In this document: positions 10,791 through 33,182 of the stretch, in pieces | How positions within the stretch are numbered: the first letter of the stretch is position 1 | Layout: each line of letters starts with the position of its first letter | Assembly (NCBI RefSeq): GCF_023238205.1 | Contig: NZ_CP096659.1 | Coordinates: forward strand, 2,931,626-2,995,625 | From: Halorussus limi | Lineage (GTDB): Archaea; Halobacteriota; Halobacteria; Halobacteriales; Haladaptataceae | DNA: 64,000 bases | Direction of reading: 5' to 3' | Notes under the pieces: generated by a model | What the model saw: the letters and a program-made list of their open reading frames with translations, nothing else | What the model was told of the DNA's origin: nothing | Database searches by the model: none | Program-made: the position numbers and the translations under genes

Positions 10791-12089
10791 TTAGAGCTGG
10801 TCGACGAATCGGTCGAATGCGCCGCTCTCGGCGTGGACGTGTGCGTAGGTGCCGAGCGTCCGGTACTCGGTGAGCCCGTCGCGGTCTCCGTCGATGCCCG
10901 ACCCCCGTTCGACGTCGAAGGCGAACCGGGCATCGGAGTCGACGTCGGCGCTCGAGTAGTGGAACTCGTGGCCGCGGACGGCGTCGTCTGTTCCCGCGGT
11001 CAGCGTCGGTTCGCGAGCGCGGAGTTCTACGTGGTCCAGCGCCTGATAGCGGTCGTGCATCCGGACCTCGGCGGGGAGGACGCCCGCCATCTCGTACGTC
11101 TCCTCCTCGGCCGTCGTCAGCGACTCGCTGAGCACCATCATCCCGCCGCACTCGCCCAGAACCGGTACGCCATCGACGGCATAACGACGGAGTGACGAGA
11201 GCGCCGGTCCGTCGGCGAGGTCGGCAGCGTGCAACTCCGGATAGCCGCCCGGGAGGTAAACCCCGTCGGCGTCCGGAACGTCGTCGCCATCGGCCGGAGC
11301 GAACGTCACCACCTCGGCGCGCGAACGCAGTCGTTCGAGGACGCCCGGATAGACGAATCGGAACGCGTCGTCGCGCGGCACGGCGACTCGCATGTTCCTG
11401 GCCGATCGCTGATTACTCGACTCCGGGCGGGGAGGTTCGCTGGCGGCCGCCACGAGTTGCTCAGTGTCGATGTGGTCAGCGGCGTCGTCGAGCGTTTCCC
11501 GGTCGAGCGGGTCCTCCTCGCCCATGTGGAGGCCGAGGTGTCGGTCGGGGATTTCGAGGTCGGCGCTCGGTGGAATCCGGCCGAAGTACGTCAACCCGTC
11601 GGGGAGGGCGTCCGCGATGCCCGTTTCGTGACGGCCGCCGTGCGCACGTTGTGCGATAACGCCCGCGACGTCGATATCGCGACCCGCATCGGCGGCGTAC
11701 TTGCGGAAGCCTACCGCGGTCGCGGCTACGCTCTCCATCCCGGCACTTGCGTCGACGACCAGCACCACCGGGAGATCGAGCGCCTCCGCGACCATCGCCG
11801 TACTGGACCCATCGCCGTCGTAGAGCCCCATGACGCCTTCGACGACGCAGACGTCGCCGTCGCCGCGGTAATAGTTCCGTCGGAGCCCCTCCTCGCCTTC
11901 GAGCCAGACGTCGAGGGTGCGCGACGGACGGCCTGCGACGACTGCGTGATGACTCGGGTCGATGAAGTCCGGGCCGGCCTTCGCTGGCTGGACCGAGTAG
12001 CCCGCCGCTTCGACGGCGCTGATGACTGCGAGGGTGGCGACCGTCTTCCCCACGCCCGACCGAGTGCCACCGACGACGACGCCCTTCAT
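10791..12089 (-). CDS. cbiA: CbiA, cobyrinate a,c-diamide synthase
   Basis: ATP- and glutamine-dependent amidation of the a and c carboxylates of cobyrinate. The 432-aa protein shows the P-loop GGTRSGVGKT (residues 7-16), a long nucleotide/substrate domain and a C-terminal glutaminase domain with Cys314 (GECGGMM) and His417 in TYAHVH. The start overlaps the preceding small gene by 4 nt. Together with btuR and cbiP it completes the side-chain chemistry to cobyric acid. Confidence 0.96.
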   Translation of the reverse strand: MKGVVVGGTRSGVGKTVATLAVISAVEAAGYSVQPAKAGPDFIDPSHHAVVAGRPSRTLDVWLEGEEGLRRNYYRGDGDVCVVEGVMGLYDGDGSSTAMVAEALDLPVVLVVDASAGMESVAATAVGFRKYAADAGRDIDVAGVIAQRAHGGRHETGIADALPDGLTYFGRIPPSADLEIPDRHLGLHMGEEDPLDRETLDDAADHIDTEQLVAAASEPPRPESSNQRSARNMRVAVPRDDAFRFVYPGVLERLRSRAEVVTFAPADGDDVPDADGVYLPGGYPELHAADLADGPALSSLRRYAVDGVPVLGECGGMMVLSESLTTAEEETYEMAGVLPAEVRMHDRYQALDHVELRAREPTLTAGTDDAVRGHEFHYSSADVDSDARFAFDVERGSGIDGDRDGLTEYRTLGTYAHVHAESGAFDRFVDQL

Positions 12090-12364
12090 GGTTTCACCGC
12101 GGGTTCTTCGTCGGTAATCGGTTCGTAGACGTCGATGACGCGGTCGCCCACCGCCGCCATCGACACGTCCGACCGATCGGCCAGCGCAAGCGCGCCGCCC
12201 ATTCCGACATCTTCCTTCGCCTCACCGGCGACGTAGGCGTCCATCGCCGGGTGGTCGCTGCGGTCGAACTCGGGGTCGGTCACGGTCAACTCTAGGTCGA
12301 GGTCAGTCGCCAATGCCGCTATCTCGGCGGTCCGTGTGCATCCGGCGATAAGAGCGAACCTCAT
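12086..12364 (-). CDS. Small unknown protein, first gene of the cbiA unit
   Basis: A 92-aa protein starting MRFALIAGCTRT, with a Rossmann-like beta-alpha opening and then an acidic body ending in a Pro/Glu tail. I do not recognise a family. Its 3' end overlaps cbiA by 4 nt and it is the promoter-proximal gene of cbiA-btuR-cbiP, so it probably acts in corrinoid synthesis or its control. Candidate roles (metallochaperone, small regulatory subunit) are guesses from position only. Confidence 0.65.
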   Translation of the reverse strand: MRFALIAGCTRTAEIAALATDLDLELTVTDPEFDRSDHPAMDAYVAGEAKEDVGMGGALALADRSDVSMAAVGDRVIDVYEPITDEEPAVKP

Positions 12365-23212: not shown

Positions 23213-24493
23213 TCAGCAGTGGAGGCGGTACGACCCTCGGACCGCGTCCTCGTCGTGGTAAGCGACGGGTTCCTCCACCGCCGCGACCCGACCGTCCTCA
23301 ATTGCGGCCGCGGTGACGACGCCCGATATCGGTCGACCCGCAGTTCGACCGTCAGTCACGTCGAATTTGGACAGCGCGTGCGCGTTGGGATCTCGCTCCC
23401 GGAAGTGCTGGGCCGCGGGGACCGCGATACGGTCCCCGTCGGTCGCTACTCCGTGGACGAACCCTCCGACCGACGACTCCCAGCGAATCTCGCCTTCTGG
23501 ACTGACACCGACGGCCGCGTGTTCGGTGGGATGGCGGGCGTCCGTCTCTCGTCCGTCTTCGGGATACGTGTTGCCGGTGACGAAGACGACACCGTCTCCG
23601 GTAGCATGCACGTGATTCGGATACGCGTAGACCGTCTCCTCCCCACAGTCGACGGGGCGGCCCAGGTCGACCGCCCATCGGACGCCGTCGTCGTCGAGGA
23701 AGTATCCGCGGTAGTCGGCGTGGCTAGCCACTGCAATCCCGTCCTCGGTGAGCGAGAGGTCCCCGACGCGTCGCTCTCCGTCACCCGGCGGGTCCCAACG
23801 ACGACGTACCGTTCCAGTGTCCGCGTCGAGGGCGACGAATCCGTCGGAATCGGTTCCGGGACACCGATTGGATCCCACGGCGACGGTCCCGTTACGGACA
23901 CTGAGCGCAATCGGCGAAGCGTCCGTCTCGTAACGCCACGCCACCGTGCCGTCGGATTCGAACGCGTACACGACGCTATCGAAGTTCCGTGTACCGTCTG
24001 ACTCTCGGTAGTAGCGGCGAGCGGCGACGTACGCCCGCCGGCCGTCCGTGGTCGCGTCCAAGACGAACGGTAGGAAGAACCGAGTCCGTTTCGCCGGGTC
24101 ACCGACGTCGTCCGCGGAGCGATAGCTCCACCGTTGTTTCCCAGTGTCGGCGTCGAGCAGACGGATGTCGCCGTCGGGGCCGCGTTCCCCGGCGAGGAAG
24201 CCGTCCGCGAACGCAGTCAGTGAAACGACACTCCCTGAGACGCCGTCGGATGTCCCATCCGGCGAGCCCCGGTTCGGTTCCCTCGGCGGAACGCTCTCAT
24301 TCCGCCAACGTTCGTCCAGCGTATCGACTTCGAACGCGACGACCGATCCGTCGGCGAGACCGACGACGACTGTGTCGTCGCGGAGGCAAACACTGGACCT
24401 GCGGCCGAGCTGGCGAGACCCTGCGGGGTCGACGCTTCCGAGGTCCACAGCTCGTTCGACGATCACTCGCGGTCGCTTCGCGGATTCAGTCAT
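23213..24493 (-). CDS. PQQ-like beta-propeller protein of the cob operon
   Basis: A 426-aa protein made of repeated beta-propeller blades (for example LDADTGKQRWSY, ALDADTGTVRRRW, VFEVDTLDERW-like units), as in PQQ/WD40-like propellers. No signal peptide is visible, so it is presumably cytosolic. It overlaps the DUF3209 gene by 8 nt and ends the 11-gene operon. Haloarchaeal cob clusters are known to carry such a gene, but its role is not established. It could be a scaffold for intermediates; this is inference. Confidence 0.75.
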   Translation of the reverse strand: MTESAKRPRVIVERAVDLGSVDPAGSRQLGRRSSVCLRDDTVVVGLADGSVVAFEVDTLDERWRNESVPPREPNRGSPDGTSDGVSGSVVSLTAFADGFLAGERGPDGDIRLLDADTGKQRWSYRSADDVGDPAKRTRFFLPFVLDATTDGRRAYVAARRYYRESDGTRNFDSVVYAFESDGTVAWRYETDASPIALSVRNGTVAVGSNRCPGTDSDGFVALDADTGTVRRRWDPPGDGERRVGDLSLTEDGIAVASHADYRGYFLDDDGVRWAVDLGRPVDCGEETVYAYPNHVHATGDGVVFVTGNTYPEDGRETDARHPTEHAAVGVSPEGEIRWESSVGGFVHGVATDGDRIAVPAAQHFRERDPNAHALSKFDVTDGRTAGRPISGVVTAAAIEDGRVAAVEEPVAYHDEDAVRGSYRLHC

Positions 24494-24857
24494 CGACGGG
24501 GAACGCTTCGTGGAGGACGTCGTGTGACGTCCCGAGGTCGTCCAACAGCGACTCCCCGTGGTCGGTCAACCGAGCGAGCGACTGCTCGGCGTCGCGGACC
24601 GCGACGAGCCGTCCCCGGAGGTAGTCGTACTCCGGGTCGCTCTCGTCGGCGGTCGCGATCTGCTCTTCCAGGTCGACGAGGGCCGCATCGAGGTGGCGTC
24701 GGAGTTCGGAGAGGCTCTCAGCGTTCGCCAGTCCCTCTACAGGACCCTCGAGGTGTCCTTCCAGTTCTTTCTCGGCGTGCTCCCGGACGCTCCGGTCGCT
24801 CGTGCCGAGGACGTTCATCAATCCGAGTCGCAGCGCTTCGATTTCGTGACAGCTCAT
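24486..24857 (-). CDS. DUF3209 protein of the cob operon
   Basis: A 123-aa helical protein starting MSCHEIEALRLGLMNVLG, with a C-x-H-x2-E motif at the N terminus. It matches the DUF3209 family, found almost always in cobalamin contexts. The Cys, His and Glu near the start could bind a metal or corrinoid. It lies between cbiX-ferredoxin (2-nt gap) and the propeller gene (8-nt overlap). Helix-rich make-up and size would suit a small binding subunit, but its function is unknown. Confidence 0.8.
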   Translation of the reverse strand: MSCHEIEALRLGLMNVLGTSDRSVREHAEKELEGHLEGPVEGLANAESLSELRRHLDAALVDLEEQIATADESDPEYDYLRGRLVAVRDAEQSLARLTDHGESLLDDLGTSHDVLHEAFPVDD

Positions 24858-24859
24858 GG

Positions 24860-26125
24860 TTACAGGGTTTGGTCGACGATATCCGAAACGATTCGATCCC
24901 GGTCGAGGTGGGACGAGACGACACGCTCCGCGTCGTTCTGGTCGACGCCGCCGTACCAGACGCCGTCGGGATAGACGGCGACCATCGGTCCGTCGCCGCA
25001 CCGCCCGAGACAAGACGTGCGCGTGACGCGTGCATCGCACTCCTCCGAGTCTCGGACGGACTGGCGCAGGCGTTCGAGGACTGCCGGCGCACCGTCTGCT
25101 GCGCACGTCTGGTTAGTGCAGACGGCGACGTGCTTCTCCGGCGCGTCGTGGGTATGCGGTTCCTCGTCCACGGACTCGCGGTCGGCGTGTGACTCCTGAT
25201 GAGTCAGCGCCCGCAGCATGGCCCGCGCACCGCCGACATCCTCCTCGTAGCCGTCGAGTTCGACTTTGTGCTTACAGGTGTCACACGACATGCGGACGCT
25301 GTCCGTGCGCGCCTCCTGCCAACGGTCGCCGAGCACGTCCAGGAGTCTCGAGTCCGTCCCGAGCGGATCTCCGGCCGCGGCGTCCACGTACGGGTACTCG
25401 TCGTCGAACTCCGCCGTCCGGTCGCGAATGCGTTGCGTAAGCACGCCGTCGCCCAGCATGTACGGAAGGACGACGACGCTATCCGGCCGGTGCTTCGCCA
25501 CGTCGTGAAGTGCGTCCTGCAAACGAGGCTCGGTGACCCCGACGAAACAGGACTCGACGCGGTCGAACTTGCGGCCTTCGTACAGGAGCCGGGCCAGCTT
25601 GTGAACGTCGCCGTTGGCGTCCGGGTCGCTCGATCCGCGTGCGCAGAGAACGACCGCGACGTCGTCCGCCTCACGGTCGACGCTCAGGTCTGCCTCCACC
25701 GCGGCGGCCCGGTCGTCGAGCAAGTCGACGATTGCCGGATGAACGCCGAGGTGAGACCCGTTGTGGAGCGTCAGGTCGGAGTACTCCGACCGGGCTTGCT
25801 GGATAGCCAACGGTACGTCGTTCTTGACGTGACTCGCAGCGAACAGCGAGAGCTGGACGACGGTTATCTCGGACACCGCTGGCGCGAGGCTACCGATCGC
25901 CTCCGGTATCGTCGGTTCCGCGAGCTCTAGAAACCCGACGTCTACAGGGACGCCGAGTCGCTCTTCCAGACCGACGGCGAGTTCGCGAACCTGCTCGTTC
26001 GACTTCTCCCGACGCGAACCGTGCCCGACCAGCAACACCGCCTCGTCGTCGAACTCACCGCTGGCGTCTCCCGGGCTAACTGCTCCGTCGCGGCTGGACC
26101 CTTCTTCGTCGCTACTCCGACTCAT
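24860..26125 (-). CDS. cbiX: CbiX, cobaltochelatase with C-terminal [2Fe-2S] ferredoxin-like domain
   Basis: A 421-aa class II chelatase inserting Co2+ into sirohydrochlorin. Canonical His35 in VGHGSRR and His99 in SLFAASHVKND are present. A second chelatase-like half has CARGSSD at about residues 206-212. A CDTC pair follows near 275, and then a thioredoxin-like ferredoxin domain with Cys336, Cys341, Cys372 and Cys376. A C-terminal Fe-S centre is known for some CbiX proteins. The start at 26125 is an ATG next to the previous gene's stop (4-nt overlap). Confidence 0.92.
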   Translation of the reverse strand: MSRSSDEEGSSRDGAVSPGDASGEFDDEAVLLVGHGSRREKSNEQVRELAVGLEERLGVPVDVGFLELAEPTIPEAIGSLAPAVSEITVVQLSLFAASHVKNDVPLAIQQARSEYSDLTLHNGSHLGVHPAIVDLLDDRAAAVEADLSVDREADDVAVVLCARGSSDPDANGDVHKLARLLYEGRKFDRVESCFVGVTEPRLQDALHDVAKHRPDSVVVLPYMLGDGVLTQRIRDRTAEFDDEYPYVDAAAGDPLGTDSRLLDVLGDRWQEARTDSVRMSCDTCKHKVELDGYEEDVGGARAMLRALTHQESHADRESVDEEPHTHDAPEKHVAVCTNQTCAADGAPAVLERLRQSVRDSEECDARVTRTSCLGRCGDGPMVAVYPDGVWYGGVDQNDAERVVSSHLDRDRIVSDIVDQTL

Positions 26126-26841
26126 CTGTCTCCAGCGCGTTCGAGACTCTTCAGTAGTTTCTGCCGTCGCGTCGGGGCGAATAGTCCGCTCTCCTCGCAG
26201 TTTTCGTACAGCCAGGGGCCGGCCTCCGGGACGGCCTCGTCGCTCACACCGAACCAGTAACTGCCCGATGACGACTCGGCGATATCGCTCGCGGGTGCGT
26301 CCGGTGGAATTCTGTCGAGGAGACCTCGGACGGATTCGAGGAGCTGTCGGTCGTCGTGGACGAACGATATGCCGACGGAGCCCTGCTCCGTCGAGCCTCC
26401 GCTCTCTTCGCTCGCGGAGACGCCGACCGTCTCGGCATCGCTCTTGAAACAGACCGTGCCACATCCCTCGAGTAGTCCCCGGAGGAGCTGGCGCTCGTAC
26501 CCCTCGAAGGCGTCCAAGCGGTACCCGCCGGGGTCGCCGCTCATGGGGAGCCCGAACGCCGCGGCTGCGCGTTCTGCCACGCCACCGAAGACTTGTATCG
26601 TGTACTCGTCCTCCGTGCGCGTGATGGCCGTGTCGTGGGCGTACTCGCGTTCGACGATACGGTGGTCGACCTGTTCGTCGCCAGCAATAGCCGCGAGTCG
26701 GCGAGCGGCCGTCTCGTCGTTCGCGCGGACGGTGAGACAGCCCTCTTCGAGGTCGCCATCGCCGATGGCTCGCCCCCAGAAGTACGCGGTTTCCGGGTGT
26801 CTCGCGAGCAGGTCCGCCGGAGTACCGGTCTCCATCGACAT
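26122..26841 (-). CDS. LAGLIDADG-like protein of the cob operon, unknown role
   Basis: A 239-aa protein with two matched segments, YFWGRAIGDGDL near residue 20 and LLRGLLEGCGTV near 115. Their spacing and pattern recall the paired LAGLIDADG helices of homing-endonuclease-like folds (also found in WhiA). The catalytic acid positions are only partly kept (GDGD, EGCG). It is translationally coupled on both sides: a 1-nt overlap with the ferredoxin stop and 4 nt with cbiX. The position implies a role in corrin synthesis or control rather than mobility. Confidence 0.65.
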   Translation of the reverse strand: MSMETGTPADLLARHPETAYFWGRAIGDGDLEEGCLTVRANDETAARRLAAIAGDEQVDHRIVEREYAHDTAITRTEDEYTIQVFGGVAERAAAAFGLPMSGDPGGYRLDAFEGYERQLLRGLLEGCGTVCFKSDAETVGVSASEESGGSTEQGSVGISFVHDDRQLLESVRGLLDRIPPDAPASDIAESSSGSYWFGVSDEAVPEAGPWLYENCEESGLFAPTRRQKLLKSLERAGDR

Positions 26842-27110
26842 CAGCACTCCTCCACGGTGATTGCGCCCGGCGGACAGGCAGTGGCCGCCTGTCGCGCCTC
26901 GTCGGCGCGATCGTCGTCGAACTCCGCGACTATCCGTCCGTCTTCCTCGCGGATGATACCCTCGTCGGTCCCGCTCGGCGGGACAGGGTCCGACGCCGGA
27001 TCAATCGTCGCCAATCCGTCCTCGCCCTCAACGAAACGCGGGTCCCGCGTGAGGCAGGCGAAGATTCCCTCGCACGCGTCCTTGTCGACGATAATTCGGT
27101 AGCCGGTCAT
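26841..27110 (-). CDS. Ferredoxin of the cob operon
   Basis: An 89-aa ferredoxin-like protein with DKDACEGIFAC near the N terminus (Cys13, Cys19) and ACPPGAI near the C terminus, about 70 residues later. Three cysteines in this spacing suit a single [3Fe-4S] or incomplete [4Fe-4S] cluster, as in cytochrome-P450-type ferredoxins. It probably supplies electrons to a step of ring synthesis, for example ring contraction by CbiH or a missing reductase. It lies 3 nt after cbiH1. Confidence 0.85.
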   Translation of the reverse strand: MTGYRIIVDKDACEGIFACLTRDPRFVEGEDGLATIDPASDPVPPSGTDEGIIREEDGRIVAEFDDDRADEARQAATACPPGAITVEEC

Positions 27111-27113
27111 GGT

Positions 27114-28097
27114 TCAGTAATCGTACTTGCTCTCGTACCCGCGCGGGGTCACCATGCGGTCGTCCCAGACGTACGTGTCCTCGTTGCCGACGAGAATCGT
27201 CGTCGTCATGTCTACGAGGTCGGTCTCGCCGAGCTCTTCGAGGTCGCCGAGCTCGACGATTTCGGCCCGCTCATCGTCTCGGCCTGCTCCGTGAACTATG
27301 CCGACCGGTGTCTCGGGGTCGCGATGTTCCAGCAGTATCTCGCAGCACTTCTCGAAGTTCTCCCGGCGCTTGCGACTCCACGGGTTATAGATGGTGATGG
27401 TGAATCCCTCCTTCGCGGCGGCGTGGAGGCGCGACTCGATGGTCGGCATCGGCGTCAGGTGGTCCGACAGCGAGATACTGACGGTGTCGTTGACGAGCGG
27501 TGCGCCGACCCGCGCCGCACACGACTGGGCCGCCGGAACGCCGGGGACGACCTCGAAGTCGAGCGTGCTGGCCGTCGCGCCTTTGGATTCCACGATTTCG
27601 AGCGCGAGACCGCCGAGCGCGTACACGTTCGGGTCTCCGCTGCCGACGATGGCGACGTGGTTCCCCGCGAGCGCGCGGTCGACCGCCTCCTCGGTGCGCG
27701 AGACTTCGCCGCACATCGGCGTGTCGTACAGCTCGTCCGCGGCCTCGGTGATCTCGTCGGGCAGGAGTTCGATGTACGTCGTGTAGCCGACGATGTGTTC
27801 GGCCTCGTGCAGTGCCACCCGGGCGCGCTGGGTCATCCCCTCCGCGTGACCCGGGCCGAGCCCGACCGCGACGAGCCTGCCGGGGTCGGCGTCGAAGTCG
27901 TCGACGGTCGCACCGACTTCTTCTTCGGTCGATTCGTTCGTCGAACCACCGCAACTCGAACTCGAGGACGAGTCGGACTCCGACCCGCCGCACTTCGACG
28001 ATGTCTCTTCAGCGGCCGTCGACCCGCCGCACTTCGATTCGGTGGTGTCCGTCTTCGATGCTCCGCACTTCGACTCGGTAGTGTCGTCCGTACTCAT
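27114..28097 (-). CDS. cbiH: CbiH-type precorrin-3B C17-methyltransferase with CGGS-repeat N terminus
   Basis: Ring-contracting C17 methyltransferase. The SAM-dependent core starts near residue 74 (LVAVGLGPGHAEGMTQRA), with VGSGDPNVYALGG, VPGVPAAQS and a C-terminal TPRGYESKYDY. The first ~55 residues are very unusual: a Ser/Thr/Glu-rich stretch carrying four CG motifs (KCGAS, KCGGS, KCGGS, SCGGS) in imperfect tandem repeat. These could bind metal (cobalt, iron) or be redox switches. A second cbiH follows upstream, so ring contraction is encoded twice. Confidence 0.9.
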   Translation of the reverse strand: MSTDDTTESKCGASKTDTTESKCGGSTAAEETSSKCGGSESDSSSSSSCGGSTNESTEEEVGATVDDFDADPGRLVAVGLGPGHAEGMTQRARVALHEAEHIVGYTTYIELLPDEITEAADELYDTPMCGEVSRTEEAVDRALAGNHVAIVGSGDPNVYALGGLALEIVESKGATASTLDFEVVPGVPAAQSCAARVGAPLVNDTVSISLSDHLTPMPTIESRLHAAAKEGFTITIYNPWSRKRRENFEKCCEILLEHRDPETPVGIVHGAGRDDERAEIVELGDLEELGETDLVDMTTTILVGNEDTYVWDDRMVTPRGYESKYDY

Positions 28098-28099
28098 TG

Positions 28100-29002
28100 T
28101 TAGAAGTCGTCGACGTCACGCCCGCCGCGCGGGGTGACGAGATGCTTTCCGTGGTCGTTCTCCCAGACGTTCGTTTCGTGATTGCCGACGAGAATGGAGG
28201 TGCCCATCCCGCCGACCTTGTCGTCGTGGTCGTTCGCCTCTCGCAGCGTCGTGATGGTGTGGTTCTCACCGTCCTGATTTCGACCCGTATCGCCGCGACT
28301 AGCGTCGTTGAAGATGGCGACCGGAACGTCGTCGGCGCGCTCCTCGCGGATGACGTCGATCGCCCGCTGGTAATCCCGCCAACAGTTGTACAAGACGATG
28401 ACGAACCCGCTGATCGCGGCTGCGCGCAACTTCTCCTCGATTTCGTTCCAGCCGCGCCACTTGTCCGACAGCGAAATCGTACAGAAGTCGTTCGACAGCG
28501 GTGCACCGAGGTTCGCCGCACCGCCGAGCGCCGCGGTCACGCCGGGCACGACTTCGATGGGGACGTCGTACGCCTCGTCTTCTTCCGCCATGAGATACAG
28601 AAGGTCGCTTTTTCCGTACACGTTCGGATCGCCGCCCGAGACGTGGGCGACGTCCTCTCCGTCACGGACGCGCTCGAAGGCCTCGCGGGCGAGTTCGATC
28701 TGTCGCCCCATCGTCGACCGAACGATCTCCTGCTGGGTCCCGTCCGGTCGGGCGGCGACACTTCCGTCAGATCCGGTCTGACGACGTGCCGAGCGAGACT
28801 CGGCACCGCCATCGGTGACGGCATCCTCCGGCGGAAGCGTGCCGTCGCGCCGGAGGAAATCCTGATAGAGGTTCGACGCGATGACGCAGTCCGCGTTGGC
28901 GATGACGTCCTTCGCACGCTGAGTCATAGCGTGTGGAAGCCCGGGACCGATACCGACGACGTAGAGCGTTCCCATCTCGCCCGTATTTTGGTGGTCACTC
29001 AT
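28100..29002 (-). CDS. cbiH: CbiH paralogue, precorrin-3B C17-methyltransferase
   Basis: A 300-aa tetrapyrrole methylase with VVGIGPGLPHAMTQRA, VSGGDPNVYGKSD, VPGVTAALGGAANLGAPL and a TPRGGRDVDDF end, closest to CbiH/CobJ. An insert of about 40 residues (rich in Gly, Arg, Asp) interrupts the region after LRRDG. It lies 2 nt upstream of the other cbiH. The two copies differ clearly in sequence, so they may act at different steps or one may serve another methylation, for example the C1 step for which no CbiD is seen. Confidence 0.9.
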   Translation of the reverse strand: MSDHQNTGEMGTLYVVGIGPGLPHAMTQRAKDVIANADCVIASNLYQDFLRRDGTLPPEDAVTDGGAESRSARRQTGSDGSVAARPDGTQQEIVRSTMGRQIELAREAFERVRDGEDVAHVSGGDPNVYGKSDLLYLMAEEDEAYDVPIEVVPGVTAALGGAANLGAPLSNDFCTISLSDKWRGWNEIEEKLRAAAISGFVIVLYNCWRDYQRAIDVIREERADDVPVAIFNDASRGDTGRNQDGENHTITTLREANDHDDKVGGMGTSILVGNHETNVWENDHGKHLVTPRGGRDVDDF

Positions 29003-29003
29003 A

Positions 29004-29984
29004 TTACCGCCCCACCGCGACCGTCACCGCGTCTTCGAACCGCTCTTTCTCCCGAGCGAGCTCGTGTTCCCGGCCGCCTGCGATGGCCGACGCCTCGGCG
29101 ATTCCCGGCCACCCGATGAGTTCCTTGGAGCGCGACGGCGAGGGGCCCTCGAACCCTTCCAAGGTCTCCCTTTCGAATAGGACGACGCCGAGACCCGTTT
29201 CCTGTGCTGCCTCGTAGAGTCCTTCTTCGTCCTCCTTTCTGGTCCCGGTGGCGACGAAGTCCACGTCGTCGAAATCCAGATTCAGGTCGTCGAGTGCGGT
29301 TTCCCACGCGTCGAGCACCTGTTCGGACTCCACGCCCGAGACGGTGCCCGTTCCGAGAACCACACCGTCGTTTCCGTTGCGCTTTAGAACGGTCACGTCG
29401 TCGTCGACGAGCACCGCACGCGGTCCATCGAGACGGGTGACGGGGCCGAGTTCGTCGTTCAGGACAGCGAGGTTGGTCGCGACCGTGGAGTCGCCGTTGA
29501 CAACGTGGGCGTCTAGTGCCTTCGCCTTGCTTTCGACGCCCTGCTTGCCTGCGGCTTCGCTCGCCGTGGTCATTGCCGGGACCGCACCCATCTCCGAGAG
29601 GTCGTGAGCGACCTGATTAGCGCCGTGGTGGCCGCCCGTGATGGGAATAGCCCACGTGAGTTCTTCGTCGATGACGACGATGGCGGGGTCCTCCCACTTG
29701 TCGTCGAGCAGGGGTGCCGTCTTCCGCATCGCAATGCCGGAAGCCATGAGGCCGACGAAGCAGTCGTACTCGCCCCAAAGTTCGGCGAACACGTCGCCGT
29801 GATACTCGACGATGTCTACGCGGTCGTACTCGTCGCCGATCCCGTCCTTGATCTCGCGAGCGGTCTCGAGCTTACGTTCGAAGCTGATGATAGCTATCTC
29901 GTCTGCCACCTCGCCGTCGGAGTCCGGCGTGGAACAGTGGCCGCCCGATTCGCCCGATTCCGTCTCCTCTGTTTCGGTACTCAT
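29004..29984 (-). CDS. cbiG: CbiG, cobalt-precorrin-5A hydrolase
   Basis: Opens the delta-lactone of cobalt-precorrin-5A with loss of acetaldehyde, the step that defines the anaerobic route. The 326-aa protein shows the CbiG core (CFVGLMASGIAMRKTAPLL, ITGGHHGAN) in the N-terminal and central parts and the C-terminal VLGTGTVSGVE and FVATGTRKEDEEGL region. An acidic leader with a short Cys/His patch precedes it. It lies between cbiF and cbiH2 with gaps of 1-2 nt. Confidence 0.94.
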   Translation of the reverse strand: MSTETEETESGESGGHCSTPDSDGEVADEIAIISFERKLETAREIKDGIGDEYDRVDIVEYHGDVFAELWGEYDCFVGLMASGIAMRKTAPLLDDKWEDPAIVVIDEELTWAIPITGGHHGANQVAHDLSEMGAVPAMTTASEAAGKQGVESKAKALDAHVVNGDSTVATNLAVLNDELGPVTRLDGPRAVLVDDDVTVLKRNGNDGVVLGTGTVSGVESEQVLDAWETALDDLNLDFDDVDFVATGTRKEDEEGLYEAAQETGLGVVLFERETLEGFEGPSPSRSKELIGWPGIAEASAIAGGREHELAREKERFEDAVTVAVGR

Positions 29985-29986
29985 GA

Positions 29987-30853
29987 TTAGTCGTCTGCTT
30001 CGCTTTCGTTCGAACCGCCATTCGCCCAGTCACCGTACAGGTAGGAGCGCTCGTACCCCGTTCCCTGTGCTGCTTCGCCGATAACGACGAGCGCGGAGGC
30101 ACGATACCCCGCCGCGTCCACCTTCTCGCCAATGGTTGCGATTGTTCCCTCTATGACGTCTTCGTCCGGCCAAGATGCGTGGTAGATGACGGTGACCGGC
30201 GTGTCCGGGTCGTGTCCCTCGGCCAACAGCCGGTCCATCGTCTCGTCGACCGCGTGCGTCCCGAGATAGATGCAGGTCGTCACGTCGCCCATCTCGACGA
30301 ACTCGCCGATGTGGTCCTCGTCGGGGTCGAGGGTCTTGCCTTGCGGCCGAGTGAACGCGACGTGGTTCGCCACGCCGTTCAGCGTGAGCTGCGTTCGGAG
30401 CGTGGCGCTCGCCGCGAACGCCGAGGTCACGCCCGGAACGATGTACGTCGGAACGCCTTCGTGTTCCAGCGCGTCCATCTGCTCCAGTGCCGCGCCGTAA
30501 ACCGCGGGATCACCGCTGTGAAGGCGGACCACGTTACGTCCGTTCCGGTAGGCGTCCCTCATCAGCGGAATCAGTTCTTCGAGGTCCTTGCCGACGCTCG
30601 AGACCTGCTCGGCGTCCGCACAGTACTCCTCGAGGAGTTCACTGTTCACGAGCGACCCTGCATGAACGACGAGGTCCGCTGCTTCGACCAGTTCGCGACC
30701 CGTGACCGTCAGCAGCCCCGGATCGCCCGGTCCGGCGCCGATGAACGGAACCCCTTCCTGCACCTCACCCGCTGTGCGCTCGGAAATGCGGGAATCGCGC
30801 TGTCGAGTCCGAGTGGCCGACTCCGCATCGATGGCGTCTTGCGGGTCAGTCAT
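29987..30853 (-). CDS. cbiF: CbiF, cobalt-precorrin-4 C11-methyltransferase
   Basis: S-adenosylmethionine-dependent methylation at C11. The 288-aa protein has VPFIGAGPGDPGLLTVTGRELVEAADLVVHAGSLV, VRLHSGDPAVYGA and YIVPGVTSAFAASA, diagnostic for CbiF/CobM. A polar leader of about 33 residues and a C-terminal YLYGDWANGG complete it. The start overlaps cbiL by 8 nt, and it precedes cbiG, which uses its product. Confidence 0.95.
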   Translation of the reverse strand: MTDPQDAIDAESATRTRQRDSRISERTAGEVQEGVPFIGAGPGDPGLLTVTGRELVEAADLVVHAGSLVNSELLEEYCADAEQVSSVGKDLEELIPLMRDAYRNGRNVVRLHSGDPAVYGAALEQMDALEHEGVPTYIVPGVTSAFAASATLRTQLTLNGVANHVAFTRPQGKTLDPDEDHIGEFVEMGDVTTCIYLGTHAVDETMDRLLAEGHDPDTPVTVIYHASWPDEDVIEGTIATIGEKVDAAGYRASALVVIGEAAQGTGYERSYLYGDWANGGSNESEADD

Positions 30854-31610
30854 CCGACGTCACCTCCGGAGGTACGTCGCCGTGCGCCTCGCCCTCCGCG
30901 CGTTCTCGCATCGCCGCGTCGACGCTCGTTTCGAACTGCGCGGTCGCCGGTTCGTACTCGACCTCGTGCTTCTCGGCGTAGGCTAGCGTGTAGTAGTCTC
31001 GTTCAACGACTACCTCCGGGTCCTCAGTCACGAGCGTCTCCCCCTGTTCCATGAACAGGCGACGACCGTACACTACGTCGTACCCCGCGTCGACGAGTTT
31101 CTCGTGAGTCGCCGGAGCATCAGTGACCTTGAACAGAATCATCCGATCCGGGCCCGTCGGGGCCGCACCCCGCGCGGCCTCGTGGAGTGCGAGGCTCATT
31201 CCCGACGAGATTTCGACGCCGAGGGCAGTCGCGAACGCGGTGACTGCACTCACTCCCGGGACGATTTCGGTGTCGACCTCCGGGTGGAACGCCGACATCG
31301 TGCGTCGGAGGTGACCGAACGTCGAGTAGACGTTCGGATCACCCAAGGTGACGAACACCGCGGTTTCGTCACGCGCCCGCGATGCGATTTCGTCGGCGGC
31401 TTCTTTCCAGGCCCGCCGAAGTTCGTCCTCGTCGCGAGTCATGGGGAAGTCCACATCGCCGATGCGGTCTTCCGGCACGTGCTCGGTCGCCACCGACCGA
31501 GAGAGTCGCCCCGGGGAGTAAACGACGTCCGCCTCTTCGAGGACGCGTTGCCCCTTGACGGTGACGAGGTCGGCGTCTCCGGGTCCGAGACCGACTCCGT
31601 ATAGGCTCAT
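30846..31610 (-). CDS. cbiL: CbiL, cobalt-factor-II/precorrin-2 C20-methyltransferase
   Basis: S-adenosylmethionine-dependent methylation at C20. The 254-aa protein starts directly with SLYGVGLGPGDADLVTVKGQRVLEEADVVYSPG, and has VFVTLGDPNVYSTFGHL and IVPGVSAVTAFATALG, as in CbiL/CobI. It overlaps cbiT by 4 nt and cbiF by 8 nt, so it is tightly coupled in the operon. Confidence 0.95.
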   Translation of the reverse strand: MSLYGVGLGPGDADLVTVKGQRVLEEADVVYSPGRLSRSVATEHVPEDRIGDVDFPMTRDEDELRRAWKEAADEIASRARDETAVFVTLGDPNVYSTFGHLRRTMSAFHPEVDTEIVPGVSAVTAFATALGVEISSGMSLALHEAARGAAPTGPDRMILFKVTDAPATHEKLVDAGYDVVYGRRLFMEQGETLVTEDPEVVVERDYYTLAYAEKHEVEYEPATAQFETSVDAAMRERAEGEAHGDVPPEVTSDD

Positions 31611-32221
31611 CGCTTTCCCCCGTCTCGTTTCGAGAGACTTCGTTTTGCGCCGGTCGGTTCACCGCCGTCTGTCGCGACTTCGTTCGAACTACCGACCAAC
31701 ATGTAGACGGGGTTGTCAGAGTCGAAGCTGGTCGCACCGGCCAACTGGTACCCGTGACTCACCTGTAACTGGACGACTTCGTCGAGGAGGTTGCGCTCGC
31801 GGAACGCCTCGGTCGCTGCACCGGCGACTTCGAGTCTGGAGACGTTCATCACGACGCGGTCGATACCGGCTTCGACAGCGTGGTCGAGGACCGACTCGTA
31901 GTTCCTGCTTCCGCCGATGAATAGCGCGTCTGCGTCCTCCGGCAGTCCGTCCGGGGCCTCCACTTCACGGAGCGTGACGTCCGCAGAGACTTCGTTCGCT
32001 GCCAGGTTCTTGCGACTGACCTCCAGCCGTTCCGGTTTCCGTTCGATCGCAGTGACCCGCTCGGCGCGACGGGCGGCCTCGATGGTGACCGCACCGGTGC
32101 AAGAACCGACCTCGGCGAAGTGGTCGGTCGGCGCCAAGTCGAGTTTGCTGTGAAGGACCGCCCGAACCTCGGGTTTGGTCGGGCCCGCCTTCGCATCGTG
32201 TGGAAGTACTGTTCTCGCCAT
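31607..32221 (-). CDS. cbiT: CbiT, cobalt-precorrin-6B C15-methyltransferase (decarboxylating)
   Basis: Class I SAM methyltransferase that methylates C15 and removes the C12 acetate carboxyl. The 204-aa protein has the motif I region FAEVGSCTGAVTIEAAR and ALFIGGSRN, both typical of CbiT. It is the first gene of the 11-gene leftward operon. The ATG at 32221 is preferred to a TTG 12 nt upstream. An inverted repeat spans the region right upstream of the start, shared with the divergent regulator gene. Confidence 0.93.
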   Translation of the reverse strand: MARTVLPHDAKAGPTKPEVRAVLHSKLDLAPTDHFAEVGSCTGAVTIEAARRAERVTAIERKPERLEVSRKNLAANEVSADVTLREVEAPDGLPEDADALFIGGSRNYESVLDHAVEAGIDRVVMNVSRLEVAGAATEAFRERNLLDEVVQLQVSHGYQLAGATSFDSDNPVYMLVGSSNEVATDGGEPTGAKRSLSKRDGGKR

Positions 32222-32226
32222 CACCG

Positions 32227-32267
32227 AATACAACTGTCGATGCCCCTAAAACAATTTTGGTTGTATT
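32227..32267. promoter_or_regulatory. Inverted repeat between cbiT and the divergent regulator
   Basis: AATACAAC (32227-32234) and GTTGTATT (32260-32267) form a perfect 8-bp inverted repeat with a 25-bp spacer, and TTTTGGTT (32255-32262) overlaps the right arm. The left arm lies 6 bp upstream of the cbiT ATG, so a bound dimer would block the main cob operon. The product of the gene at 32370 is the obvious candidate to bind here. Binding is inferred. Confidence 0.5.
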
Positions 32268-32369
32268 ACCTCAATCTCGGTTTCTTTATTGAGCCGACTT
32301 CCGTCGACAAGAGCAACCTCATCGAGGTTAAGGCAAAGATACTTGAGTTATCGGGACTCACAGTCGATA

Positions 32370-33182
32370 ATGACAAAAGAAATGGATGCGTCCGACGGCT
32401 CTGGCGTTCTACAGAGCAAGCGGAACGCCACTCGATATCAAATCTTGGTTCAGATCGCTGAACGTCAGCCAGCGGTGAGCCAGCAAGAAATCGCCGACGA
32501 CATCGGCATCACCTCGCAGGCCGTGAGCGATTATCTCCGGGATCTGATCGAACAGGGGTACGTCAAAAAGCACGGCCGCGGACGATACGAGGTCACCAAG
32601 CAGGGCGTCGACTGGCTCATCTCGCAAACCGACGACCTCCGGGATTTCGTCCGTCACGTTTCGGAGGACGTAATCGGGCAGGTCGAAATCGAAACTGCGC
32701 TCGCGACGACGGCAATCGACGAAGGGCAGACGGTGTCGCTTTCGATGCGGGGCGGCGTTCTCCGAGCCACGCCGGGCGAAACCGCAGATGCAACCGCAGT
32801 TGCAGTTACGGACGCGGAGAAAGGACAGGACGTCGGCGTCACCGACTTCGAGGGCGTCCTTGACTACGACGTGGGGAGAGTGACTGTAATCTCGGTTCCG
32901 CAGGTTCAGGACGGAGGAAGCGCGGAGGTAGACTCCGCTACGGTTTCCGGCCACGTCGAAACCCACGACCTTCTGGTGACGTCTGGTACCGAAGCACTGG
33001 CCGTCGTCGAATCGACGAACCACGAGCCGGACGTTCGTTTCGGGACTCCGCTTGCGGTACAGGAAGCCGCCACGAAAGGACTGGACGTGCTGTTACTCGC
33101 CGTTACGAGCGAGCTTTCCACGCACACCGACAAACTCCGAGAGCAGAACATCAGTTACGAGGTAGTCGACGCGGCAGAGTAG
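32370..33182 (+). CDS. Winged-helix transcriptional regulator divergent from the cob operon
   Basis: A 270-aa protein. Residues about 15-85 form a winged helix (ATRYQILVQIAERQPAVSQQEIADDIGITSQAVSDYLRDLIEQGYVKKHGRGRYEVT), of MarR/ArsR-like type. The C-terminal 180 residues form an alpha/beta domain of the DUF7839 type, which may sense a ligand. It starts 149 bp from cbiT on the opposite strand. It is a good candidate for the corrinoid- or cobalt-responsive regulator of the cluster; this follows from position and is not shown. Confidence 0.8.
   Translation: MTKEMDASDGSGVLQSKRNATRYQILVQIAERQPAVSQQEIADDIGITSQAVSDYLRDLIEQGYVKKHGRGRYEVTKQGVDWLISQTDDLRDFVRHVSEDVIGQVEIETALATTAIDEGQTVSLSMRGGVLRATPGETADATAVAVTDAEKGQDVGVTDFEGVLDYDVGRVTVISVPQVQDGGSAEVDSATVSGHVETHDLLVTSGTEALAVVESTNHEPDVRFGTPLAVQEAATKGLDVLLLAVTSELSTHTDKLREQNISYEVVDAAE

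Follow-up and report, generated by a model that had tools for sequence, protein, structure and literature searches.

Cobalt-early B12 operons of haloarchaea carry a conserved, domesticated family of two-repeat LAGLIDADG proteins. The member studied here is encoded within the window (the whole stretch of 64,000 nucleotides of Halorussus limi that was analysed) and, judging from the residues at its catalytic positions, the family has lost its nuclease site. Rather than being a missing enzyme, the protein probably assists in making B12 in air. More specifically, we tentatively regard it as an accessory part of an oxygen-associated module of the operon, a reading to which we give slightly less than an even chance. 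No earlier description of the family's fold or distribution was found. The features discussed below are collected in Table 1.

Table 1. Features of the LAGLIDADG gene and its operon, in positions of the window
Feature	Position	Strand	Remark
Gene under study, LAGLIDADG-fold protein, predicted nuclease-dead, 239 aa	26122..26841	-	orthologue of HVO_B0055 by gene order
First LAGLIDADG helix, residues 16-28, PETAYFWGRAIGD	26758..26796	-	from model; catalytic-position Asp28 variable
Second LAGLIDADG helix, residues 116-127, ERQLLRGLLEGC	26461..26496	-	all 81 homologues have E125 and C127
Invariant cysteine pair C127/C131 (CGTVC), start of first strand of repeat 2	26449..26463	-	from alignment
Conserved beta-hairpin R65..H69..R75 (REYAHDTAITR)	26617..26649	-	from alignment and model
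Insertion of about 17 aa, residues 137-153	26383..26433	-	almost only in window copy; low-confidence loop in model
Small ferredoxin, Fer4_15, cysteines C-x5-C...C	26841..27110	-	HVO_B0056 by order; absent from oxidase-less clusters
CbiX cobaltochelatase, MxCxxC motif, C-terminal NuoE-like [2Fe-2S] domain	24860..26125	-	His-rich tail instead in oxidase-less genomes
DUF3209, helical, invariant C3, H27, H55, H112, H116	24486..24857	-	also follows CbiX in Thermus, Leptospira
CbiH2 Ser/Asp-rich N-terminal tail with repeated CGG/CGA motifs	27918..28097	-	absent in oxidase-less genomes
PQQ-type beta-propeller protein	23213..24493	-	HVO_B0052 by gene order
Conserved putative promoter element CAANCAAAATTGTTTTA upstream of cbiT	32247..32263	-	also where operon lacks LAGLIDADG gene

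Fold and conserved residues

The AlphaFold2 model of the protein, built on an alignment of 60 homologues, has a pLDDT of 88.9 and a pTM of 0.86, and its secondary structure runs alpha-beta-beta-alpha-beta-beta-alpha twice, which is the element order of two LAGLIDADG repeats. The segments GDGDL (residues 27-31) and EGCGTV (residues 125-130), on which together with their flanking helices the original prediction of a LAGLIDADG-like fold was based, are each found at a helix end in the model (H16-28 and H116-127). Searching the PDB with Foldseek returned 49 matches at E<=0.001, all of them LAGLIDADG proteins (homing endonucleases, inteins, a maturase and WhiA), and the best 50 were LAGLIDADG proteins exclusively, led by I-Tsp061I (2dch) at E 2.2e-7. 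PI-SceI, I-DmoI, the bI3 maturase and WhiA (3hyj, 3hyi, 8dy9) are also among the matches. A structure comparison with a viral library was concordant, its named matches including many endonucleases and intein-bearing proteins. On the sequence side, the Pfam family LAGLIDADG_3 (PF14528) was matched by 35 of the 60 homologues, with a best E-value of 4.5e-5 and the individually listed scores narrowly below the curated cut-off; the match covers repeat 2 in most listed homologues and repeat 1 in one, and PF05204 (Hom_end) falls on repeat 1. The Pfam matches in homologues are sequence evidence independent of the model, and therefore the predicted fold was right. The window copy itself has no Pfam LAGLIDADG match, and sequence searches of the PDB with the single protein and with a profile found no relative. 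The proposed comparison with WhiA placed it among the matches to a LAGLIDADG fold; no helix-turn-helix (HTH) was found, since only one helix follows repeat 2 in the model and the 60 homologues matched no HTH family.

In homing endonucleases, the acidic residue ending each LAGLIDADG helix holds the catalytic metal. Among 81 sequences of the family, the first of these positions (residue 28) varies, with 44 Asp, 26 Ser, 6 Gly and 3 Ala. The second (residue 127) is invariably Cys, and every sequence has another Cys at 131. L12, Y20, W22, H69 and R108 share this invariance. Conservation is concentrated in repeat 2 (GTVCFK, SVGISFVH and SSGSYWF) and in the R65-H69-R75 hairpin of repeat 1, with strand 128-133 (GTvCFK) of the second repeat being the most conserved. 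The hairpin lies on strands that face DNA in homing endonucleases, and C131 and K133 would presumably face the groove, by comparison with I-CreI. Among divergent copies, L113, L114 and L116 retain both cysteines, and L115 carries a Thr at 127. The L114 copy, a homologue of 198 aa in the metagenome-assembled genome (MAG) G021, lies outside the cob operon between two cation-efflux (CDF) genes (L114:7826-8422, minus strand).

A draw of 295 genomes from the phylum yielded no member of the family outside Halobacteria, and no convincing second copy was found in its own genome. A second own-genome match at C1:275424 (E 2.5e-4) was taken as chance, and the profile did not recover it.

Operon organization

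The open reading frame starts with an ATG at 26841 and ends with a TGA at 26124-26122, the plus strand being interrupted by stops; its location on the minus strand is a detail missing from the original prediction. The gene had been described as overlapping both neighbours by 1-4 nt and hence as a fixed operon member, and on both points the description was accurate. It shares 1 nt with the stop of the upstream ferredoxin (TGATG) and 4 nt with the start of the downstream cbiX (ATGA), and at homologous loci the modal overlap is 4 nt on either side (59 of 80 with the ferredoxin, 48 of 76 with cbiX). The operon order is cbiT-cbiL-cbiF-cbiG-cbiH1-cbiH2-ferredoxin-LAGLIDADG gene-cbiX-DUF3209-PQQ propeller, followed by chlID, cobN, cbiC and cbiE. 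Within it, the stretch from cbiH2 to cbiX is near-invariant in order across about 80 haloarchaeal loci, with the MAG mentioned above as the exception; at locus L116 of G014 no ferredoxin was detected beside the LAGLIDADG gene. Some plasmid-borne homologues are annotated by NCBI just as "cobalamin biosynthesis protein".

Upstream of cbiT, the element CAANCAAAATTGTTTTA occurs in 74 of 76 haloarchaeal loci, compared with about 0.0008 occurrences per shuffled region, and it probably serves the cob operon as an operator or core promoter. The 74 include every one of the 5 loci with no LAGLIDADG gene in the operon; something else must therefore read at least this element, perhaps the machinery of the core promoter or the winged-helix protein encoded next to cbiT. 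No credible cobalamin riboswitch or other Rfam element was found in window positions 7000-35000. The winged-helix protein carries DUF7839, is encoded at 32289-33182 (plus strand), divergently from cbiT, and is conserved there in 22 loci; it is a candidate cob regulator.

Distribution in haloarchaea

Of 194 haloarchaeal genomes, 106 have cbiG and 102 the LAGLIDADG gene, all 102 within the 106. Among the CbiG-positive genomes the gene is present in 102 of the 103 with a haem-copper oxidase and in none of the 3 without (Fisher p 2e-5, uncorrected for ancestry). The latter (G001, G007 and G129) are three of just four genomes in the 194 without any haem-copper oxidase, and Halodesulfurarchaeum formicicum HSR6, to which G007 was matched, has been described as an obligate anaerobe with negative oxidase tests (PMC5437934). 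Their clusters retain cbiT, L, F, G, H1, H2, X, C, E, cobN, chlID and cbiA, with cobalt-transport genes adjoining cbiT in G001, and are without the LAGLIDADG gene, the ferredoxin, DUF3209 and the propeller. In these clusters a His-rich tail takes the place of the [2Fe-2S] domain of CbiX, and CbiH2 is without the tail of CGG/CGA repeats. The three clusters form one clade (support 0.998), and therefore the oxygen link is a single contrast, in one cluster lineage found in hosts of two families; the contrast thus follows lifestyle rather than host taxonomy. The one oxidase-bearing genome without the gene, G052, has everything else, and its LAGLIDADG slot is filled by a second, His-tailed CbiX without the [2Fe-2S] domain (L131:12702-13643), while its sister genomes have the usual arrangement with the LAGLIDADG gene.

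The neighbouring genes follow a similar distribution. DUF3209 occurs in 103 of the 194 genomes, namely the set with the LAGLIDADG gene plus G052; its model matches TTHB059 (2ehw), a Thermus protein without assignment, and its invariant Cys and His residues suggest that it may bind metal. In nearly all oxidase-bearing genomes CbiH2 has the tail, usually with 2-5 CGG/CGA motifs, of which the oxidase-less genomes have none; the tail also gives a sub-threshold match to an HvfA-type metallophore model (NF050137). RiPP-type modification of this cysteine tail, which that match suggested, was considered and rejected, as no MNIO enzyme (PF05114) was found in 13 genomes.

The CbiD/CbiJ gap

Profiles of CbiD (PF01888) and CbiJ (PF02571) found no match in the 99.99%-complete genome or in the 194 haloarchaeal genomes, with positive controls working in both searches; the best match of the CbiJ profile in the genome (E 0.16) is below cut-off and lies outside the LAGLIDADG gene. 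The window protein itself has no Pfam match to either profile, and neither is among the families matched by the 60 homologues. The absence noted in the cluster thus extends genome-wide. Pfeiffer et al. (PMC8305020) already reported this gap in 2021, with HVO_B0055 among four candidate cluster genes without assignment, and therefore that part of the interpretation is not new.

The proposal that the LAGLIDADG gene supplies one of the missing steps was not supported, because the oxidase-less clusters share the gap, CbiD and CbiJ being missing there as well, without having the gene, and because G052 lost this gene alone. DUF3209 (24486), also proposed, is disfavoured: in Thermus and Leptospira it follows CbiX in operons containing CbiD, which makes it an unlikely CbiD substitute. 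Of two other members put forward for the missing steps, 23213 is the PQQ-type beta-propeller, and 12086 resembles a C-terminal piece of CobT. A better candidate C1-methylase than the LAGLIDADG gene is CbiH1, a diverged paralogue of CbiH that scores below the family cut-off and is present in the oxidase-less clusters too. The gene at 12086-12364 (minus strand, 92 aa) is a stand-alone piece: its match to archaeal CobT-family models (NF003371, E 4e-27) covers just their C-terminal quarter.

Proposed role and alternatives

The B12 pathway is oxygen-sensitive. A domesticated, catalytically dead two-repeat LAGLIDADG protein may have become fixed and translationally coupled in the haloarchaeal cobalt-early operon as one element of an oxygen-associated add-on block, which would comprise the cysteine-tailed CbiH2, the ferredoxin, the LAGLIDADG protein, CbiX with its [2Fe-2S] domain and DUF3209, and would lie outside the core pathway. 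The protein itself would supply neither C1 methylation nor precorrin-6A reduction. The second half of its former DNA-binding groove would carry two invariant thiols where the nuclease held its metal ion and would bind a ligand of the pathway, either cobalt or an oxygen-labile cobalt-corrinoid; an Fe-S cluster at the thiol pair or groove is an alternative ligand within the same reading. The neighbouring ferredoxin possibly gives electrons, and the arrangement would allow early cobalt insertion and ring contraction in the presence of air. The fold, the loss of the nuclease site, the conserved thiols, the operon coupling and the co-occurrence are directly supported by the results above; the ligand, the redox role and oxygen as the cause we infer.

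The circumstantial case for this accessory role includes the placement of the gene, its coupling and co-occurrence, its replacement by a His-tailed CbiX in G052, and the G021 copy beside cation-efflux genes. Against it stand the single oxidase-less clade, the nucleic-acid binding of known domesticated LAGLIDADG proteins, the Thr in place of C127 in L115, and mirror-tree residuals that do not tie the LAGLIDADG protein to the ferredoxin (0.10) or to CbiX (0.14). Neither value is significant in this test for partnership; the residuals for the PQQ propeller (0.48), CbiH1 (0.34) and CbiH2 (0.25) would fit a role in ring contraction better than one in chelation. The fuller proposition is that the LAGLIDADG fold has here left nucleic-acid work, its former DNA groove binding cobalt or an intermediate of the cobalt-corrin type with a thiolate pair in the position of the catalytic metal site, and that the block is an oxygen-adaptation module; in our opinion this is possible but less likely than not.

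A different function, which we consider quite possible although less probable than the accessory one, is that of a WhiA-like regulator, with a groove for DNA or RNA of the cob regulon and a cysteine pair as sensor of metal or redox state. The fold matches include WhiA, the domesticated LAGLIDADG proteins known to us act on nucleic acids, and the conserved basic residues R65, R75 and K133 on the groove strands, with a C-terminal RRRKL patch, would suit such binding. However, WhiA's HTH domain has no counterpart here, the promoter element is independent of the gene, and a winged-helix gene adjoins cbiT in 22 loci. The mid-operon site, coupled to a ferredoxin and a chelatase, also argues against a regulator, as does the acidity of the protein (pI 4.46, like enzymes), although the HTH protein is equally acidic and surface charge is thus uninformative on DNA binding. 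Gap filling, in which the protein would perform C1 methylation in place of CbiD or precorrin-6A reduction in place of CbiJ, draws on the absence of both enzymes from the 194 genomes, on invariant cysteines that could be catalytic, and on the gene being one of the four cluster members without assignment in PMC8305020. Such a replacement was rejected on distribution, given the oxidase-less haloarchaea that keep the gap and the remaining cbi genes without it; the sole loss in G052 and the better claim of CbiH1 count in the same direction. Since non-orthologous replacement in the oxidase-less genomes is possible, gap filling keeps a small probability, and we hold it to be improbable. We also know of no SAM or NAD(P) site on a LAGLIDADG fold, which we counted against it. 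As for a homing endonuclease, remnant or active, or an intron or intein fragment without any B12 function, the fold itself would agree; yet catalytic residues are lost while seven residues are invariant in 81 sequences, the same operon position is held in about 80 loci, and neither a convincing second genome copy nor, in the draw of 295 genomes from the phylum, a homologue outside Halobacteria was found, so that such a selfish remnant appears very improbable.

Comparison with known systems

WhiA (DUF199), a transcription factor of Gram-positive bacteria, likewise has a two-repeat LAGLIDADG fold, no nuclease activity and a vertically fixed gene. In contrast to the haloarchaeal protein, it has a C-terminal HTH and sits outside B12 operons. 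The haloarchaeal protein is marked by a CxxxC pair at catalytic position 2, and among the searched genomes only those of Halobacteria encode it. The archaeal monomeric homing endonucleases I-Tsp061I and I-DmoI, which are the best structural matches, share the overall fold as two-repeat monomers; their acidic catalytic residues are not kept in the haloarchaeal protein, which is a fixed operon gene and not intron- or intein-encoded. Thermus and Leptospira, which live aerobically, have cob operons with cobalt-early genes and the same adjacent pair of CbiX and DUF3209, their CbiX bearing the same kind of four-cysteine C-terminal domain, although without a LAGLIDADG gene or a small ferredoxin annotated alongside. 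HVO_B0055 of the Haloferax volcanii cobalamin cluster, the orthologue by gene order, is already a gap candidate in PMC8305020; the fold, the nuclease-site loss, the link with aerobic respiration and the case against gap filling were not found in the main text of that paper.

One gene without assignment in the haloarchaeal B12 cluster thereby gains a fold and a testable class of role, and the search for the missing CbiD and CbiJ activities shifts to other genes, CbiH1 foremost. The set of accessory parts may explain how aerobes use an oxygen-sensitive, cobalt-early pathway. If the groove does bind a corrinoid or cobalt, this would be, to our knowledge, the first LAGLIDADG protein acting on a target other than nucleic acid.

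Some observations bear on the history of the cluster. Its GC content (window positions 8000-33000) is mostly about 64-66%, compared with about 55% in the right part of the window (33000-64000), and the cluster is absent from five genomes of the same genus; together these suggest that it was acquired or repeatedly lost. The region 26122-32233 is a mosaic. Locus L058 has the closest counterparts (71-87%) of most genes between cbiT and cbiH1 inclusive, and the ferredoxin and the LAGLIDADG gene are closest to L031 and L003 (about 69%) with just 48-53% to L058, split affinities which suggest that recombination may have taken place inside the operon.
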